A stretch of 64,000 nt of DNA from Halococcus agarilyticus (lineage in GTDB: Archaea > Halobacteriota > Halobacteria > Halobacteriales > Halococcaceae), in the NCBI RefSeq assembly GCF_000334895.1, contig NZ_BAFM01000003.1, forward strand, positions 124,001 to 188,000, written 5' to 3'. The notes beneath the pieces were generated by a model, which saw only the letters and a program-made list of their open reading frames with translations, made no database searches and had not been told where the DNA came from. The translations under genes and the position numbers were made by a program. Shown piece after piece: positions 12,324-63,147 of the stretch. How positions within the stretch are numbered: position 1 is the stretch's first letter; each line of letters opens with the position of its first letter.

Positions 12324-14015
12324 CTACTCGCCGGCGAGTCGACGTACCACGACGATCGCGAGGCCCGCGAACGCCGCGACCACGCCGAAGCCAGCCCCTT
12401 CGCCGGCGCTCGTCCCTTCGCCGGCGCGCGATTCGATTTCGGTCCCCGCTCCGGCCCCAGCCGTTTCGGTCAGGGTCGTCCGCCCTTCGTCGACGGTTTT
12501 CGTCGCCGCCCCCGTCGTTCGGTTCCCGACCGTGGCTCCGTCGGTGCCGGTGGTCCCGTTCGTGCTCGTGGAGTCGTTTGCGGCTCCCGTCGATTCCGGC
12601 GATCCGCGCGACGGGACGATCCGATGGACCGCACCGCCGAGATCGCCGCCGGCCGTCAGCGCGTAGAGTTCGCCGTCGTCGTCCCGACCGACGTCGAGCA
12701 AGTATCCCCCGAGTTCGCCGTCCTCGGCCCCCGCGATCGTGAGCTTCTCGAACTGCCACAGCCCCTCCTCGGCGGGCGTCGCCGCGAACAGCGATCCCTG
12801 GGGACTGCCGTCCTGGCTGTAGTCGCCGAAGACGAACCTGCCGCCGAGCGCGTCGATCGTGCCGTCGTAGACGTACCCCCCGATGACCGAGATGCCGATG
12901 GATTCGCCGTCGCGGGAGTGGGGGTACTCGATCACGGGATCGCGGAGCGGTTCGCCGTCGCGGACGTCCGAGGGCGTCGAATCGGGACACTCGTCGGCCT
13001 CGTCGCCCGTACTGAAACAGTGCGTGCCCTCCTTCACGTTCCAGCCGTAGTTGCCGCCCTTCACGACCCGATCGACCTCCTCGTAGCGGTTCTGGCCGAC
13101 GTCGCCGACGTAGAGCTCACCGTTCGAGAAGCCCATCCGCCACGGGTTGCGAAACCCCCACGCGAACTGCTCGTCGAGGCCGGCTTCGCCCACCAGCGGG
13201 TTGTCGTCCGGAATGTCGTAGGGTCTGTCCTCCCCTTCGCTGTCGACGTCGATCCGGAGGACGCTCCCGAGCAGGTTTTCGGTCACGTCCTGACCGTTGC
13301 CGCCCTCGTTTTCGTCATACCAGTCTTCGGCGTGGCCGGTCCCGACATCGTTGGCCCGGCCGCCGTCGCCGAACGGGACGTAGAGGTAGCCGTCCGGACC
13401 GAACCCGAGCGCGCCCGCGTTGTGGTTGCTCTGGGGCTGGGGGACTTCGAGGAGTCGGCGCTCGGTGTCGGGTCGCCCGACAGTTCGGTCGTCGTTCGCG
13501 CGGAACTCGGCGAGCACCGCCGTATGGGAGTAGCTGTCGGGCGTCTCGTCGGTCGACGGCGCGCTGTAGCGCAGGAAGAACCGGCCGTTCGATCCGAACT
13601 CGGGATGGAAGGCAAGCCCGAGCAGGCCCTGTTCGCCCTCGACGGGCGTCATCCGATCGCTCACGTCGACGAACGACTCCTCGCGCCGGCCGTCCGCGTC
13701 GACGACGTACACTTGGCCGGGCCGATCGACCACGAACCGACGGTCGTCGCCCGAGGGGGTCGCGAAGTCGACCGGCTGCTCGAACCCCTCGGCGACGGTG
13801 TCGAGCCCGACGGTCGGCCCCTCCGGAACGGGGCCACCGTCCTGTGCGACCGCGCTCCCGCTCGCGATGGGCCCACCACCGCCAGCCAGACCGACGACTG
13901 CACCGACTGCACCGGCCACGGTCGTTCGGAGCAGTCGGCGACGGGACACCGCCGAACGGTTTCTCTCGGCGTCGTCGCCCTTCCCCGCTGCTGTCGTGTG
14001 GTTCACTACCGACAT
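12324..14015 (-). CDS. Secreted PQQ-type sugar dehydrogenase with PGF-CTERM-like tail (copy 1)
   Basis: A 563-residue glucose/sorbosone dehydrogenase-type six-bladed beta-propeller. SRRRLLRTTVAGAVG gives a Tat signal. GLAFHPEF, FLRYSAP, GFGPDGYLYVPFGDGG, WGFRNPWRM, GDVGQNRYEEVD and NYGWNVKEG are family motifs. The propeller is followed by a Thr/Asn/Gly-rich linker and a C-terminal hydrophobic helix ending VVVRRLAGE. That end resembles the archaeosortase PGF-CTERM signal, but with AGFG in place of PGFG. It probably oxidises sugars outside the membrane. It is a tandem paralogue of the next gene, lying downstream of it in the transcription direction. ATG 14015 is used, and 14048 is an alternative. 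Confidence 0.85.
   Translation of the reverse strand: MSVVNHTTAAGKGDDAERNRSAVSRRRLLRTTVAGAVGAVVGLAGGGGPIASGSAVAQDGGPVPEGPTVGLDTVAEGFEQPVDFATPSGDDRRFVVDRPGQVYVVDADGRREESFVDVSDRMTPVEGEQGLLGLAFHPEFGSNGRFFLRYSAPSTDETPDSYSHTAVLAEFRANDDRTVGRPDTERRLLEVPQPQSNHNAGALGFGPDGYLYVPFGDGGRANDVGTGHAEDWYDENEGGNGQDVTENLLGSVLRIDVDSEGEDRPYDIPDDNPLVGEAGLDEQFAWGFRNPWRMGFSNGELYVGDVGQNRYEEVDRVVKGGNYGWNVKEGTHCFSTGDEADECPDSTPSDVRDGEPLRDPVIEYPHSRDGESIGISVIGGYVYDGTIDALGGRFVFGDYSQDGSPQGSLFAATPAEEGLWQFEKLTIAGAEDGELGGYLLDVGRDDDGELYALTAGGDLGGAVHRIVPSRGSPESTGAANDSTSTNGTTGTDGATVGNRTTGAATKTVDEGRTTLTETAGAGAGTEIESRAGEGTSAGEGAGFGVVAAFAGLAIVVVRRLAGE
12716..12834 (-). repeat. 119-bp identical tract shared with 14589-14707
   Basis: These 119 bp match bases 14589-14707 without a difference, while the flanking parts of the two sugar dehydrogenase genes are clearly diverged. 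The tract encodes the segment ending in GLWQFEKLTIAGAEDGEL. This is a sign of recent gene conversion between the tandem paralogues, 1873 bp apart. Confidence 0.85.
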
Positions 14016-14079
14016 CGAGTGGCCGTTCGACCAAAGGCCTGACGCCACGGGAAATCGACCGAGAGTCCCCGAACCCGTT

Positions 14080-16200
14080 CTACCGCCCGACGAGGCGGCG
14101 TGCGGCGACGCCCGCGAGGCCGGCGAGGGCTGCGAGGACGCCGAACCCGGGCCCCTCGGCGTCGCTCGTTTCGTTCGCGCCCGTTCCGGTCGCGCTCACC
14201 GATGTCGGTTCGCCTCCTGACGTCGTGGTCGTTTCCGTCCCCCTGGTTTCGGTAGCGGCCGCCGTGGTCGTTTTCGGTCCTGCGGCGGTCGGTTCGGCCG
14301 TCGCCCGCCCCATAGTCGTCGCTTCGACTGTCCCGGTTGCGGTCGCACGCGCCGTCGTCCCCTCTGTGCCGGTCGCCCCGTCGGTCTTCGTCGCTGCCGT
14401 CTCGGTGGTTCCCGGATCGGTCATTGCAGACGTCTCGGTTCGCGTCTGGGTCGTCCCCGTGGCCGTCGCCTGGTCCAGCTCCCCGGAAACGAGCCTGTGG
14501 ACCGCCCCACCGAGGTCGCCGGCGGAGGTCAGCGCGTAGAGTTCGCCGGCGTCGTCCCGACCGATGTCGATCAGGTACCCGCCGAGCTCGCCGTCCTCGG
14601 CCCCCGCGATCGTGAGCTTCTCGAACTGCCACAGCCCCTCCTCGGCGGGCGTCGCCGCGAACAGCGATCCCTGGGGACTGCCGTCCTGGCTGTAGTCGCC
14701 GAAGACGTACGTGCCGTCGAGTGCGTCGACCGATCCCTCGTGAACGTACCCCCCGATGACGGAGAGTCCGATCGGCTCGCCGTCACGGGAGTGGGGGTAC
14801 TCGATCACGGGATCGCGGAGCGGTTCGCCGTCGCGGACCGCCTGCGGTGTCGAATCGGGACACTCGGCGGGGATCTCGCTCGGGTTCGCGGTGCTGTAGC
14901 AGTGCGTGCCCTCCTTCACGTTCCAGCCGTAGTTGCCGCCCTTCACGACCCGGTCGACCTCCTCGAACCGGCTCTGGCCGACGTCGGCGACGTAGAGTTC
15001 GCCATCGGAGAACCCCATCCGCCACGGGTTGCGAAACCCCCACGCGAACTGCTCGTCGAGGCCGGCTTCGCCCACCAGCGGGTTGTCCTCGGGGATCCCG
15101 TAGGGTTTCTCCTCTCCTTCGCGATCGACGTCGATTCTGAGGATCGAGCCGAGGAGGTTCTCGCCGACGTCCTGCCCGTTGCCGCCCGTGTTCTCCTCGT
15201 ACCAGTCCGCGGCGTGACCGAGGCCGGTGTCCCGTGACCCGCCGCCGTCGCCGTACGAGGCGTAGAGATAGCCCTCGGGCCCGAACGCGAGCGCGCCGCC
15301 GTTGTGATACTTCGTGGGTTCGTCGACCGCCAGCAAGGGTCGCTCGGAGCCGTCGACCACGCCGCTCGCGTCCTCGGTCGCGCGGAACTCCGAGAGGAGT
15401 TCGGTGTGTGAGAACCCATCGGGGGCGTCCTCGGCCAGCGGGGCGCTGTAGCGCAGGAAGAAGCGCCGGTTCTCGTCGAACGCGGGGTGGAAGGCGATCC
15501 CGAGCAGCCCGCGCTCGCCGGTGCGCTCGGCGAGGCGATCGGCGATATCGAGGAACGGCTCCCCGCGCCCGCCGCCCGATGCGACGGTGTACACCTGGCC
15601 GGGCAGGTCGACCACGAACCGACGGCCGTCGCCTGGCGCGCTCGCGAAGTCGGTCGGCACCTGGAACCCGTCGGCGACGGTGTCGAGCCCGACGGTCGGC
15701 CCCTGCGGCACGGGACTCTCCTCGGTATCGGACGTCTCGGTCGTAGTCTCGGTTTCGATCCCCGATCCGTCGCCGAAGGAGATCGCTCCGCGCATCGTGC
15801 CGCTGTGGGGCTCGCAGACGTACTCGGTCACCTCCTCGCTCGCGGTGAATTCGAGGGCCTGGGTCTCGCTCTCCTCGCTCATCACCGCGGTGCGTTCGAG
15901 GACGCTCCCCTCGGAATCGAGCAGCGCGAAGTTGTGGCCCATCCCGTCGATGTTCTCCCAGACGACGCGGTAGGTGGTGCCGGCTTCGAGGCTCAGGGTA
16001 GGGTTCGTCTCGCCGGCGATCGACTCGGGCGCACGCCCCTGCCAGCCGGCGATCTCGCCGCCGAGTCGGATGATCTCAGGCGACTGGGCCGCAGCGCTGC
16101 CGACGCCGCCGACGCCAGCGAGCGCGCCGGCCGCGGTCGCCCCGAGGAACCGGCGGCGGGACGTCTGGAACTCTTCTCGTGTGCGTGGATCACCTGTCAT
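14080..16200 (-). CDS. Blue-copper domain fused to PQQ-type sugar dehydrogenase, PGF-CTERM tail (copy 2)
   Basis: A 706-residue secreted protein. The Tat signal is SRRRFLGATAAGALAG. Residues about 40-142 form a cupredoxin domain with H89 (GMGHNFAL), C129, H132 and M136 (VCEPHSGTM), a full type-1 copper ligand set. A Thr/Glu linker follows. From about 165 comes a sugar dehydrogenase propeller with the same motifs as its neighbour. Then come a Thr-rich spacer and a GPGFG-hydrophobic-RRLVGR tail, matching the PGF-CTERM archaeosortase signal. The fused copper domain could accept electrons from the dehydrogenase directly. ATG 16200 is chosen as the start because it precedes the Tat motif. Confidence 0.88.
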   Translation of the reverse strand: MTGDPRTREEFQTSRRRFLGATAAGALAGVGGVGSAAAQSPEIIRLGGEIAGWQGRAPESIAGETNPTLSLEAGTTYRVVWENIDGMGHNFALLDSEGSVLERTAVMSEESETQALEFTASEEVTEYVCEPHSGTMRGAISFGDGSGIETETTTETSDTEESPVPQGPTVGLDTVADGFQVPTDFASAPGDGRRFVVDLPGQVYTVASGGGRGEPFLDIADRLAERTGERGLLGIAFHPAFDENRRFFLRYSAPLAEDAPDGFSHTELLSEFRATEDASGVVDGSERPLLAVDEPTKYHNGGALAFGPEGYLYASYGDGGGSRDTGLGHAADWYEENTGGNGQDVGENLLGSILRIDVDREGEEKPYGIPEDNPLVGEAGLDEQFAWGFRNPWRMGFSDGELYVADVGQSRFEEVDRVVKGGNYGWNVKEGTHCYSTANPSEIPAECPDSTPQAVRDGEPLRDPVIEYPHSRDGEPIGLSVIGGYVHEGSVDALDGTYVFGDYSQDGSPQGSLFAATPAEEGLWQFEKLTIAGAEDGELGGYLIDIGRDDAGELYALTSAGDLGGAVHRLVSGELDQATATGTTQTRTETSAMTDPGTTETAATKTDGATGTEGTTARATATGTVEATTMGRATAEPTAAGPKTTTAAATETRGTETTTTSGGEPTSVSATGTGANETSDAEGPGFGVLAALAGLAGVAARRLVGR
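14589..14707 (-). repeat. 119-bp identical tract shared with 12716-12834
   Basis: Second member of the perfectly identical pair inside the tandem sugar dehydrogenase genes. A second near-identical block of about 75 bp occurs farther upstream in both genes, around 13130 and 15015. Confidence 0.85.
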
Positions 16201-26737: not shown

Positions 26738-26901
26738 TCGGTCGGTGCGCGAAAGCGTCATTTTCCCCGACGGCGTAGCGCCGCCGGCCGATGACGAGGC
26801 GCGGTTCCGAGCCGGACTCGGCACCCGGCGACGACGAGCCCTATGAGTACCGAGGCCGACACTCGTACCACGTAGGCCCCGATCCCTGACGTCGAACGCG
26901 G

Positions 26902-33298: not shown

Positions 33299-33366
33299 AC
33301 GCCGGGAACGGTAGCGGGGTAGTGCGGCTGCGGTAGCGGGGCGGTGCCTGGCGGATGAAGGGCGAG

Positions 33367-33391
33367 GGCGCGCGAACAACGTGAGCGCGCC
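33367..33391 (+). repeat. Variable-stem hairpin, stem GGCGCGC
   Basis: GGCGCGC and GCGCGCC flank GAACAACGTGA. In the homologous place of the second family B copy (59957-59977) the stem is ACCAC/GTGGT around GAACGGAGTGA, so both arms changed together. Confidence 0.75.
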
Positions 33392-33439
33392 CGAGGGCTT
33401 CGGTGGTGCGGTTGCGGTGGCGGTAGCGGTTCCTGGTGT

Positions 33440-33462
33440 CTCGACGAACGAAGTGAGTCGAG
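33440..33462 (+). repeat. Variable-stem hairpin, stem CTCGAC
   Basis: CTCGAC and GTCGAG flank the loop GAACGAAGTGA, the same loop type with another self-complementary stem. Confidence 0.75.
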
Positions 33463-33619
33463 GCTCAGGGGAGCAAAGCTCTCCTGGTGGATCGAGGGCG
33501 AGCGCCGAAGGCGCGAGGGCTCGGGCGGTGCTGTTTGCGGTTGCGGTTTGCGGCGAGCGTCAGCAGTTGTTACCGCGAACGAGGCCGAAGGCCGAGTGAG
33601 CGGGTATTTTTAGTCCACC

Positions 33620-33644
33620 GAAAGACTCGCTTCGCTCGTCTTTC
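33620..33644 (-). repeat. Variable-stem hairpin, stem GAAAGAC
   Basis: GAAAGAC and GTCTTTC flank TCGCTTCGCTC. On the minus strand this loop reads GAGCGAAGCGA. Confidence 0.75.
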
Positions 33645-33648
33645 GAGC

Positions 33649-33671
33649 CTTGCTTCGCTACGCTCAGCAAG
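33649..33671 (-). repeat. Variable-stem hairpin, stem CTTGCT
   Basis: CTTGCT and AGCAAG flank TCGCTACGCTC. The minus-strand loop is GAGCGTAGCGA, again one base different from its neighbour. Confidence 0.75.
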
Positions 33672-33747
33672 ACAGGTTTTTGCGGGGAGGGGTGCCCGCA
33701 GCGCGCGAAGCGTGCGAGGACACCCCTCTCCGTAAAAAAGTGGGTTT

Positions 33748-34017
33748 CTAGACGCCGCTGACCGTCGAACGGTACTCGCTGAGGTGTTCGTGAGCGGCCC
33801 GAACGTTCTCCCGGGCGTCGCCGTCGAGCTGGGCCTCGATCTCGTTGAGCGCGTTCTCCATCCGGGCGATCCGGCCGTGGTCGGGGCCGCGGTCGGCGTC
33901 GGCGAGGTCGTCGAGCTGCTCGGCGAGCCCCTCGATACGCTCGCGCAGGTCGCCGTCGGCGTCGTGGCTCGCGTCGGTCAGCAGTTCCCCGGCGGTCCGG
34001 AGTCGATCGCGTGTCAT
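33748..34017 (-). CDS. Small acidic helical protein (DUF7553-like)
   Basis: An 89-residue, helix-only, acidic protein: MTRDRLRTAGELLTDASHDA, then ERIEGLAEQLDDLADADRGPDHGRI and ALNEIEAQLDGD with heptad-like spacing. From memory it resembles a widespread haloarchaeal small coiled-coil family, probably DUF7553. The role is unknown. An ATG six codons upstream is an alternative start. It is divergent from crtB across an AT-rich promoter region (ATTATAATTATC near 34075). Confidence 0.7.
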   Translation of the reverse strand: MTRDRLRTAGELLTDASHDADGDLRERIEGLAEQLDDLADADRGPDHGRIARMENALNEIEAQLDGDARENVRAAHEHLSEYRSTVSGV

Positions 34018-58130: not shown

Positions 58131-59897
58131 ATGAGTCAGCAGCCGAAATCGCCCGAGGCGGACCACGAGGGCGGGTCGAGGGATCGAGGTGAAGCCGGAT
58201 CGCCCGAGGGTCTCCGGAGCCGCGAAGTCACGGACGGCCCCGAGCGCGCGCCCCATCGAGCGATGTTCCGCGCGATGGGGTTCGACGACGCGGACCTCGA
58301 CTCGCCGATGGTCGGCATCGCGAACCCCGCCGCCGACATCACGCCGTGTAACGTCCACCTCGATTCGGTCGCCGAGAGCGCCATCGAGGGCGTCGACGAG
58401 GCGGAGGGGATGCCGATCGAGTTCGGCACGATCACGATCTCGGATGCGATCTCGATGGGTACTGAAGGAATGAAGGCCTCGCTCGTGAGTCGGGAGGTGA
58501 TCGCCGACTCCGTGGAGCTGGTGGCCTTCGGCGAGCGCATGGACGCCCTCGTCACCGTCGCGGGCTGTGACAAGAACCTCCCCGGGATGATGATGGCCGC
58601 GATTCGGACCGATCTACCGTCGGTGTTTTGCTACGGCGGGTCGATCCTGCCTGGCGAGCACGGGGGCCGGGAAGTCACCGTCCAGGACGTCTTCGAAGGC
58701 GTCGGCACGTACGCCGAGGGTGAGATGAGCCGCGAGGAGCTCGACGACCTCGAACGCAGCGCCTGCCCCGGTGCGGGCTCGTGCGGTGGGATGTTCACCG
58801 CGAACACGATGGCGTCGATCGCGGAGGCGATCGGCCTCGCACCGCTCGGGAGTGCGAGCCCACCCGCAGAAAGCGACGAGCGCCGGGTAGTCGCCCGGGA
58901 AGCGGGTGAGATCGCGCTTGACGCGGTCGCGGAGGACCGCAAACCGTCGGACATCCTAACGCGTGCGAGCTTCGAGAACGCGATCGCGCTTCAGGTCGCG
59001 ATGGGTGGCTCCACGAACGCCGTGCTCCACCTGCTGGCGATGGCCGCCGAGGCGGGCATCGACCTCGACATCGAGACCTTCGACGAGATCTCCCGGCGGA
59101 CGCCGAAGATCGCGAACCTCCAGCCCGGCGGCACGCGCGTCATGAAGGACCTCCACGACGCCGGGGGCGTGCCGGTCGTGGTTCGCCGGCTCGTCGAGGG
59201 TGGCTACATGGACGGCGACGCGATGACCGTCACCGGGCGCACGATCGCCGAGGAGCTCAACGAACTCGACCTTCCCGACGACGAGTCGATCGACGCCGAC
59301 TTCCTTCGGCCCGTCTCGGACCCGTTCTACGAGGAGGGCGCGATCCGGATCCTGACGGGGAACCTCGCACCCGACGGCGCGGTCATCAAGGTCACTGGCG
59401 AGGAGGGCCTCCGCCACGAGGGTCCGGTTCGAGTGTTCGAACGCGAGGAGGGCGCGATGGAGTACGTCCAGGAGGGTCACGTCGACTCCGGCGACGTGCT
59501 CTGCATTCGCAACGAGGGGCCGAAGGGTGGACCCGGGATGCGCGAGATGCTCGGCGTGACCTCCGCGGTCGCGGGCCAGGGTCACGCGGAGGACGTCGCG
59601 CTCTTCACCGATGGGCGGTTCTCGGGGGCGACTCGCGGGTTCTCGATCGGTCACGTCGCACCCGAGGCGTTCGCCGACGGGCCGATCGCCGCGCTGGAGG
59701 ACGGCGACCGCGTGACGATCGACGTCGCCGAACGGACTCTCGAAGTCGACCTCACCGACGCCGAGATCGAGTCCCGCCTGGCCGAGCGCGAGCGGCCCGA
59801 TCCCGACTACACTTCGGGCGTGCTCGCGAAGTACGGGGCGATGTTCGGTTCAGCGGCCGACGGTGCGGTGACGAACCCCAGTGCGAAGCGGGAATAG
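58131..59897 (+). CDS. ilvD: Dihydroxy-acid dehydratase
   Basis: A 588-residue iron-sulfur dehydratase of branched-chain amino acid synthesis. The cluster Cys residues lie in [27 protein letters not shown] and [32 protein letters not shown] is another hallmark. The N-terminal 45 residues are an extra acidic, disordered halophilic extension ([16 protein letters not shown]). The stop is followed at once by the second family B repeat. Confidence 0.95.
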
Positions 59898-60241
59898 CGG
59901 GGGGTGGTGCGGTTGCGGCGGCGGTGCAGTTGCGGTCCTGGTGGATGAAGGGCGAGACCACGAACGGAGTGAGTGGTTGAGGGCTTCGGCGGTCGTGGTT
60001 GCGGTGCGGAAAGCACAGCAGTCGTACCGTGAGCGAGGCGAAGCCGAGCGAGCGGGTGTTTTTGGTCCAGATTTTTGCGAGTAGCGAGGGACGCGGAGCG
60101 TCCCTCGTACCGTGCGAGCGGGCTTCGGCCCGCGAGCAGAGAGCGGTGGGCAAGCGAGTGTAACGAGCGAGCGCACCCGACGAAGTAAAAAGGTGGGTGG
60201 GGAGTCGCAAAGGTTTAGCGGGCGGGTACGCTACCGCGAGC
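59898..60241. repeat. Dispersed intergenic repeat, family B copy 2
   Basis: Bases 59898-60195 match 33299-33745 in order and type: GGTGCGGTTGCGG, GGATGAAGGGCGAG, GAGGGCTTCGG, GCGGGTGTTTTTGGTCCA and AAAAAGGTGGGT. Stems GGGACGC/GCGTCCC and CGGGC/GCCCG near 60085-60135 add further hairpins. No gene is seen. Confidence 0.7.
59957..59977 (+). repeat. Variable-stem hairpin, stem ACCAC
   Basis: ACCAC and GTGGT flank GAACGGAGTGA. It stands at the same place in the repeat as 33367-33391, which has a fully different but also self-complementary stem. Confidence 0.75.
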
Positions 60242-60712
60242 ATGGCGGACTGTCCACTCGCCGACGAATGCCCGAGTTTCTCCGAGCGGGTCGCCGGGAT
60301 GGGGTGTCAACACTACGGCAACCGGGGCGGCGCTGAGTGGTGCAACCACTACAGCCAGCCGATCCGCGAGCTCAAGTCCCAGCCCGTGCAGATCGGCGAG
60401 GAGCTGATCGTCGACGTGACGGACATCCACGAGAGCGGGGCCGGCGTCGGCCGGACTGAGGATGGATTCATCGTCTTCGTCGACGGCGTGCTCCCCGACG
60501 CACGCGCCCGAGTGAAAGTCACCAAAGTCCGCTCGAACCACGCGAGGGCCGACGAGCTCGAACGCCTGCCGATGGACGACGAGGACGAAGGCGACGCGGG
60601 CGACGCAGCGGACGGCGAAACCGACGGAGACGATGGCGACGGAAACGAGCGCGATGGCAGGCCGAAACGCCGCGAGCGGCTGGGTAGTCGGGAGAACTTC
60701 TGGGGCGGGTAG
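60242..60712 (+). CDS. TRAM-domain protein with N-terminal cysteine motif
   Basis: A 156-residue protein. Residues 1-36 contain Cys at MADCPLADECPSF, GCQHYG and EWCNHY, which may bind zinc or a cluster. Residues about 48-105 form a TRAM beta barrel (QIGEELIVDVTDIHESGAGVG, then IVFVDGVLPDARARVKV) expected to bind RNA. The tail is a low-complexity Asp/Gly/Glu stretch. ATG 60242 is chosen at the conserved start. Confidence 0.85.
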   Translation: MADCPLADECPSFSERVAGMGCQHYGNRGGAEWCNHYSQPIRELKSQPVQIGEELIVDVTDIHESGAGVGRTEDGFIVFVDGVLPDARARVKVTKVRSNHARADELERLPMDDEDEGDAGDAADGETDGDDGDGNERDGRPKRRERLGSRENFWGG

Positions 60713-61908: not shown

Positions 61909-63147
61909 ATGACGGACGTACAACAGCACGCGGAGCAGATCCACGACCAGTTTTCGGACGAGTTAGACATCACCGTCGCGGACGTCGAGGAACGCCTCGA
62001 CACCCTGGTGAACGAGTACAAGGTCCCCGCGGAGGAGGCCCGCCGGAGCGTCACCAGCAGCTACCTCGACGAGGCCGGGATGAACAGGGACGAACTCGGC
62101 GGCGAGAGCGAGGAACGCACCCTCGAAACGATCGCCGCGCCCGAGGAGTGGGTCGATCTCACGGTGAAGGTCCTCCAGCTCTGGGAGCCACGAAGCGAGT
62201 CGATCGCCCAGGTGGGGCTGCTGGGCGACGAGACGAGCACGATCAAGTTCACGGCGTGGGCGACCTCCGACCTGCCCGAGCTCGAAGAGGGAGCGGTCTA
62301 CCGGCTCGAAAACGTCGTCACCGACGAGTACGAGGGCCGCTTTTCAGTAAAGCTCAACCGGACGACCACGATCGAGGAGCTCGACGAGGAGCTCGACGTG
62401 CCCGAGTCGGGTGGCGACAGCGAGGACCGCGAGGTCGGTTCGATCGACGCGCCCGAGGAGTGGGTGAACGTCACCGCGAAGATCACCCAGCTCTGGGAGC
62501 CACGCAGCGAGTCGGTCGGCCAGGTCGGCCTACTGGGCGATCCCTCCGGCACGCTCAAGTTCACCAAGTGGGCGAAGTCGGACCTGCCCGAACTCGAAGA
62601 GGGGTCGGTGTACCGGCTCGAAAACGTGGTGACCGACGAGTACGAGGGGGATTTCTCGGTCAAGCTCAATCGGACGACCACGATCGAGGAGCTCGACGAG
62701 GAGATGGAGGTCGGTGACGACGCCATCACCGTGGAGGGCGCGCTGGTCGACATCCAGCGCGGTAGCGGCCTCATCAAGCGGTGTCCCGAGGAGCGGTGTA
62801 CGCGCGTCCTCCAGAACGGGCGCTGTTCGGAGCACGGCGAGGTCGAGGGCGAGTTCGACCTCCGGGTGAAGGCCGTGATCGACGACGGCAACGCGGTCCA
62901 CGAAACCATCTTCGATCGGGAGGCGACCGAAGAACTCGCCGGCATCTCGCTCGACGAGGCGAAGGAGATGGCGATGGACGCGCTCGATACTACTGTGGTG
63001 GCCGACGAGATCCGCGAGGGAGTCCTCGGCGGGTACTACCGCGTCGAGGGCCCCACTCTCGGCCGGTACGTGCTCGCGAACGACTTCGAGCGGCTCGGCG
63101 GGCCGACGGACGCCGAGGAAACGCTCATCAAAGCGAGGTCGCTGTAA
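61909..63147 (+). CDS. rpa1: Replication protein A (single-strand DNA-binding), RPA1 type
   Basis: A 412-residue ssDNA-binding protein. The N-terminal 65 residues are helical. Two OB folds follow, starting at EEWV near residues 79 and 183 and repeating with a period of about 104 residues (LWEPRSES and VGLLGD occur in both). Residues 290-310 form a zinc finger with C292, C297, C306 and H309. The C-terminal part is a further OB-like or interaction domain. It protects ssDNA in replication and repair. Its stop overlaps the rpap gene by 1 nt. Confidence 0.93.
   Translation: MTDVQQHAEQIHDQFSDELDITVADVEERLDTLVNEYKVPAEEARRSVTSSYLDEAGMNRDELGGESEERTLETIAAPEEWVDLTVKVLQLWEPRSESIAQVGLLGDETSTIKFTAWATSDLPELEEGAVYRLENVVTDEYEGRFSVKLNRTTTIEELDEELDVPESGGDSEDREVGSIDAPEEWVNVTAKITQLWEPRSESVGQVGLLGDPSGTLKFTKWAKSDLPELEEGSVYRLENVVTDEYEGDFSVKLNRTTTIEELDEEMEVGDDAITVEGALVDIQRGSGLIKRCPEERCTRVLQNGRCSEHGEVEGEFDLRVKAVIDDGNAVHETIFDREATEELAGISLDEAKEMAMDALDTTVVADEIREGVLGGYYRVEGPTLGRYVLANDFERLGGPTDAEETLIKARSL

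Follow-up and report, generated by a model that had tools for sequence, protein, structure and literature searches.

What are the two long, related noncoding stretches that follow the stop codons of plus-strand genes in this 64,000-nt window (the whole stretch of DNA analysed here)? The two, which we call copy A (59.9–60.2 kb) and copy B (33.3–33.7 kb), share collinear blocks of 110 and 140 nt at 73–74% identity (E 4e-10 and 9e-13, searched against the window), while a third block at the A-tract end is weak (46 nt, E 0.75). The first-pass annotation had described them as collinear over at least 300 bp; the shared blocks and their order hold, but no single unbroken 300-bp alignment is found. 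Both copies start within about 20 nt past a plus-strand stop (59897 and 33298), and copy B contains two tandem units of the helix that we call P1, along with extra hairpins. We agree with the same annotation that the repeats are noncoding: there is no sign of coding because the spacing of two fixed P1 blocks varies by lengths not divisible by three, and these frame-breaking inserts led us to drop a coding reading. The parts of the two copies are as follows, with the helices and the covariance model R1 described below.

59898..60197 (+): copy A, whole element, between ilvD (stop 59897) and a TRAM-type gene (60242-60712, +)
59937..60081 (+): copy A, core matched by R1 (P0, P1, linker, P2 and both T5 runs), 128 bits, E 6.7e-32
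59943..59993 (+): copy A, P1, composed of GGATGAAGGGCGAG, a variable hairpin and GAGGGCTTCGGCGGT; covariation GAAG:CTTC / CGAG:CTCG
60026..60057 (+): copy A, P2 hairpin with tandem G.A pairs, immediately 5' of T5
60059..60076 (+): copy A, T5-GGTCCAGA-T5
60077..60186 (+): copy A, variable hairpin module, from the second T5 to A5 (including a hairpin from 60084)
60187..60196 (no strand assigned): copy A, A5 and GGTGG, which are the opposite-strand T5 and the 3' arm of P3 (CCA:TGG)
33299..33747 (+): copy B, whole element, between a plus-strand gene (end 33298) and a minus-strand gene (stop 33748-33750)
33347..33473 (+): copy B, first P1 unit, GAAG:CTTC type, R1 51.9 bits
33483..33624 (+): copy B, second P1 unit (CGAG:CTCG type), P2 (33572-33605) and first T5 (33607-33611), R1 98.2 bits
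33677..33681 (+): copy B, second T5
33734..33739 (no strand assigned): copy B, A6, the minus-strand T6, 8 nt behind the stop of the minus-strand gene

Within the variable module of copy A, a 34-nt long hairpin block (60084-60117) recurs with 0–1 mismatches in copies L002, L003, L004 and L005, and is more alike between several copies than the core. The window also holds other repeats, namely a minus-strand tandem duplication at 12616-15714 (two neighbouring stretches, spaced by about 1.88 kb and 75–89% alike) and, within one plus-strand ORF at 62098-62709, two 300-nt units that are 81% alike and 312 nt apart.

The family is large in the host. With copy A as query, BLAST returns 66 matches in the 3.48-Mb genome, and model R1, built from an alignment of 26 host-genome copies and one copy from a metagenome-assembled genome (alignment A1), returns 109 matches at E ≤ 0.01, far above chance; this count derives from scoring 150 of 5041 first-look candidates, and some of its rows are tandem units of one locus. 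The outcome that would have spoken against a dispersed family, only these two copies, is thus not what the genome count gives. Searches with Rfam covariance models yield no match across 59880-60250 at E ≤ 1, and none at the gathering threshold for the element in the window or in 20 loci from a genome of another family (G108, discussed below), so a known Rfam RNA was dropped as a candidate. Elsewhere in the window, 26786-26857 (+) matches the C/D-box RNA sR-tMet (RF02163, 71 bits). Among openly accessible papers, judged by titles and the beginnings of abstracts, we found none describing the element family.

Read 5' to 3' on the G-rich strand, the element has a constant order: a G-rich linker, P0, P1, more G-rich linker, P2 and T5. 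A spacer, roughly 8 nt long and often NRTCCANN, separates this T5 from a second one, which is followed by a variable hairpin module and A5. Two bases past the A5 lies a 3-mer complementary to the 3-mer 5' of the second T5, a pairing that we call P3. P0 pairs CCTGGC with GCCAG, and P1 is composed of GGATGAAGGGCGAG, a variable hairpin and CGAGGGCTTCGGCGG. P2 consists of CCGC-GA-GC-GA, a variable hairpin and GA-GC-GA-GCGG, and runs directly into T5. Given A1 and no structure, RNAalifold recovers P0, P1 and P2 with 24 pairs, and for 12 of them at least one sequence carries a change at both partners; on a 104-row alignment it returns only 4 pairs, all in P2.

In 104 copies, the 18 pairs named in P1 and P2 together have 94 cells changed on both sides versus 20.5 in shuffles, a count taken from an alignment (A2) that was fitted to R1 and therefore favours structure. 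None of 500 shuffles reaches 94, and controls with slid pairing give at most 16; the element thus has compensatory changes beyond both kinds of control, as expected of a structured RNA. The P1 arms, parsed in 81 of 108 copies, are of the GAAG:CTTC type in 59, the CGAG:CTCG type in 19 and mixed in 3. A strict P2 motif fits 74 of the 108 copies and fails in 34, and among those that fit, the two inner pairs are both Watson-Crick in 67, against a shuffled maximum of 46. For P3, which could be parsed in 65 of 108 copies, the 3-mers are fully complementary in 49 (shuffles: mean 25.8, maximum 37) and of six kinds: CCA:TGG (34), GAA:TTC (7), CGA:TCG (4), GTA:TAC (2), GCA:TGC (1) and GGA:TCC (1). The double T run falls within the core in 68 of 108 copies, and at the six tandem G.A positions in P1 and P2, 161 of the 162 cells in A1 retain the pair. 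On the G-rich strand, G.T pairs outnumber A.C mismatches (43 versus 10), an asymmetry suggesting that this is the strand that folds. Folding energy is mostly no better than in shuffles for five pieces (z of +0.3, +0.6, +0.5, -0.6 and -2.4); copy A itself has a z of -2.3.

The position of the element relative to genes is more regular on one side than on the other. A home-made gene finder trained on 400 kb placed 108 of the 109 matches, with one upstream and one downstream gene missing. The upstream gene lies on the same strand in 51 of 107 copies and on the opposite strand in 56 (an earlier version of the finder, superseded after retraining, gave 53 and 52), while 83 of 107 copies have a downstream gene on the opposite strand and 24 have one on the same strand (p 9e-9 versus one half; p values here are only indicative, given the non-independence of tandem units and of related genomes). 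Thirty-nine of 106 copies are flanked by two genes that are both on the strand opposite to the element, and copy A belongs to the rarest class, with both flanking genes on its own strand (7 of the 106 copies with both neighbours known). The first-pass annotation had placed the repeats directly behind plus-strand stops, which is true of both window copies and extends to about half of the family; the anchored side is instead the 3' end of the opposite-strand neighbour.

The T runs show this anchoring. A5 is present in 71 of the 83 copies with an opposite-strand downstream gene, and in 68 of these 71 it lies 3–12 nt from that gene's stop, which amounts to a T5 behind the stop on the gene's own strand. 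A T5 no more than 15 nt past the stop is found for 59 of 69 abutting opposite-strand genes, whereas among upstream same-strand genes the count is 2 of 43, and among control genes (gap of at least 60 nt, no element near) 4 of 121. Of 51 rows with an upstream same-strand gene, 31 have the first T5 behind that gene within the element. The element thus carries the feature by which haloarchaeal T-stretch terminators are recognised, an intergenic run of about five Ts downstream of a gene.

How widely is this arrangement distributed? R1 has 69–109 matches per genome in the 10 genomes of the genus that were searched, and other genera of the family have 0–13 (E ≤ 1e-6). In the order, counted with stricter filters and 22 candidates scored per genome, 57 of 146 drawn genomes have an R1 match, with 1–5 each outside the family. 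The terminator-half pattern TTTTTNRTCCANNTTTTT (T5-spacer-T5) is found in 76 of the 146 genomes, with up to 35 sites per genome, and the reversed pattern has one match across all 146. G108 has 30 such sites; in the 20 that were fetched the downstream gene is always on the opposite strand, the A5 lies 6–26 nt from it in 19, and 15 have an opposite-strand and 5 a same-strand upstream gene. P2 in this genome is mostly a long hairpin, again with more G.T pairs than A.C mismatches (24 versus 6). By eye, P1 is seen outside the genus in 2 of 20 loci (L176 and L180, both from another genus of the family), and another of these 20 loci, L189, is mostly masked.

We compared element positions in relatives. 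The TRAM-type gene behind copy A has its best relatives in a Halobacteriales metagenome-assembled genome (92%) and in Halococcus morrhuae (82%), which makes the host probably a Halococcus or a near relative of that genus. In the former, SW_9_67_24, the element is kept 5' of the TRAM-type gene (95 bits); a small gene that resembles DUF433, named by eye, separates ilvD from the element there (L042, 2319-2760). R1 also matches at this locus in H. morrhuae (59.5 bits) and, partially, in H. thailandensis (42.5 bits), and in neither was ilvD found beside the element within the 3 kb examined. Halalkalicoccus has only a fragment resembling P2 (19.6 bits), and a further locus (L044) has no R1 element.

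Fifteen other loci were located in relatives via the abutting opposite-strand gene. R1 is present at 14 of 15 in G004, 9 of 15 in G003, 11 of 15 in G007 and 0 of 14 in G016, which is of another genus, and the far-side gene is recognised at 11, 1, 1 and 3 loci, respectively. R1 is missing from 24 of the 44 loci in G003, G007 and G016, and the far-side gene is recognised in 3 of these 24; no clean empty site is seen because sites without the element mostly also have another far-side gene. For 10 of the 15 loci, a usable far-side gene match in G003 and G007 permits a direct comparison: the element is beside the abutting gene in 15 of 20 cases versus beside the far-side gene in 6 of 20, and at six convergent loci these values are 12 of 12 versus 4 of 12. 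The element thus stays with the abutting gene more than with the far-side gene, so we take the T/A end to be the anchored end. One orthologous site without R1 in G007 (L238, about 1 kb) has, by eye, only a T5-hairpin-A5 between two gene ends, which is perhaps a bare two-way terminator.

Sequence turns over while position is kept. By global alignment, the orthologue is the best match of its counterpart in 3 of 14 cases in G004, 0 of 9 in G003 and 0 of 11 in G007, and the median identity to the orthologue is 0.84–0.87 versus 0.82–0.84 to all copies. A variant hairpin 5' of P2, typed by a short marker as longer patterns left many copies untyped, is found in 8 of 102 copies in the host, 1 of 14 in G004, 8 of 9 in G003 and 10 of 11 in G007. 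This is the pattern that concerted evolution would give, and saturation may contribute to the low best-match counts.

Several known systems resemble the element in part. In bidirectional intrinsic terminators, two convergent genes share one palindrome that has a T run on each strand. The element likewise has a palindrome and a T run on each strand that could serve two facing genes, but it differs from these terminators in having T5 and A5 at the hairpin base and, on one strand, a further hairpin-T5 ahead of it; in addition, the 39 of 106 copies noted above sit between two opposite-strand genes. The REP/BIME sequences of enterobacteria are short extragenic palindromes with a RAYT partner, present in many imperfect copies, often at gene 3' ends. 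The element shares the high number of imperfect copies, the extragenic and palindromic character and the frequent location at gene 3' ends, but is much longer and has a fixed order of helices and T5 runs. The palindrome-associated transposable elements of Haloquadratum walsbyi are, like our element, haloarchaeal, noncoding, palindromic and multi-copy, a likeness by description. For Haloferax volcanii, PMC7237163 places the ends of intergenic transcripts at T stretches and gives an efficiency of 95% for an inserted T5C. An intergenic T5 near gene ends fits this known use in position; unlike the T stretches described there, the T5 of the element belongs to a repeated, covarying, two-sided cassette of 150–450 nt with a conserved NRTCCANN spacer. 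In that paper, an accessibility test gives no general secondary-structure signal around intergenic sites.

On balance, the element is probably a dispersed, RNA-structured, bidirectional transcription terminator or insulator. The first-pass annotation had listed terminators and structured 3' RNA ends among its options, and covariation, strand asymmetry and the placing of the T5 runs favour this, with termination itself deduced from sequence. A polymerase arriving from the G-rich side, whether from the upstream gene or from divergent or antisense transcription, would be slowed by the P2 hairpin and let go at U5-NRUCCANN-U5, while a polymerase leaving the abutting gene would be let go at that gene's own U5, such that neither transcript would enter the neighbouring gene. 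Ectopic recombination would homogenise the copies, so that sequence turns over and position is kept. The uniform orientation at the 20 fetched sites in G108 favours such a terminator. PMC6523106 reports for Halobacterium salinarum an excess of antisense RNAs at the 3' ends of mRNAs, and an insulator would therefore have a purpose. Against this reading, PMC7237163 describes archaeal T-run termination as independent of RNA structure, which makes P0 and P1 look superfluous for termination. The 24 copies with a same-strand downstream gene also count against it, as do the folding energies of single sequences, mostly no better than in shuffles, and the many copies in which the signature is incomplete, with the strict P2 motif or the double T run missing.

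Two other readings would likewise place the element in a transcript. A 3' UTR element that ends or protects only the mRNA of the upstream same-strand gene would suit both window copies, the roughly half of the family with a same-strand upstream gene and the 31 rows in which the first T5 of that gene falls within the element. The opposite upstream gene in the other 56 copies, some of the highest-scoring included, and in 15 of the 20 G108 sites is at odds with it, and in relatives the element keeps with the other, abutting gene; we consider this reading quite improbable and, given the split in upstream strand and the anchoring to the other gene, dropped it as a sole role. An independent, multi-copy noncoding RNA that is transcribed from a promoter of its own and terminated by the T5 runs would suit the fold and strand asymmetry, which are kept despite an opposite upstream gene in those 56 copies. 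Yet upstream base composition shows no AT-rich, promoter-like step at a fixed distance in either upstream-gene class, and the tight spacing between T5 and the neighbour's stop would be left unexplained, such that an independent RNA appears unlikely.

The remaining readings concern the DNA itself. A non-autonomous mobile element, resembling MITEs or REPINs, could settle at gene ends in one orientation with terminator function as a by-product, and it would account for about 100 similar copies per genome, some with tandem units, for the presence that differs between related species (9 and 11 of 15 loci) and for the low numbers in other genera of the family. The nearest genome examined, G004, is nevertheless occupied at nearly all of these loci, the order-wide occurrence of the terminator half suggests age, and copy A has no match in plasmid and phage collections (blastn, E ≤ 1e-5). 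This reading thus seems rather unlikely, and in its classical transposon form, an option that the first-pass annotation had raised, it finds no support, given the G004 occupancy and the outcome of the plasmid and phage search. A DNA-level structure, such as a cruciform, a G-rich single strand or a recombination or segregation site, would agree with the palindromic P3, with G.T pairs, which also form in DNA, and with the frequent change of the far-side gene, but it has no need of T5 runs near stops and is very unlikely.

Returning to the structured, two-sided terminator, a broader and more doubtful form of this reading is possible. The element may be a gene-end-colonising cassette, an RNA-structured haloarchaeal terminator whose terminator half is order-wide, which takes 3' boundaries in a fixed orientation, is homogenised by gene conversion across about 100 copies per genome and provides, on both strands, most T5 terminators in its GC-rich host, with stems that alternate Watson-Crick and tandem G.A pairs. 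In the stretches examined, T5 runs near stops occur almost only together with the element, and roughly half of the 146 genomes examined across the order also contain its T-run core. The usual account of archaeal termination has a T stretch acting without any need for RNA structure; here the T runs are accompanied by a covarying fold and a fixed two-sided geometry.
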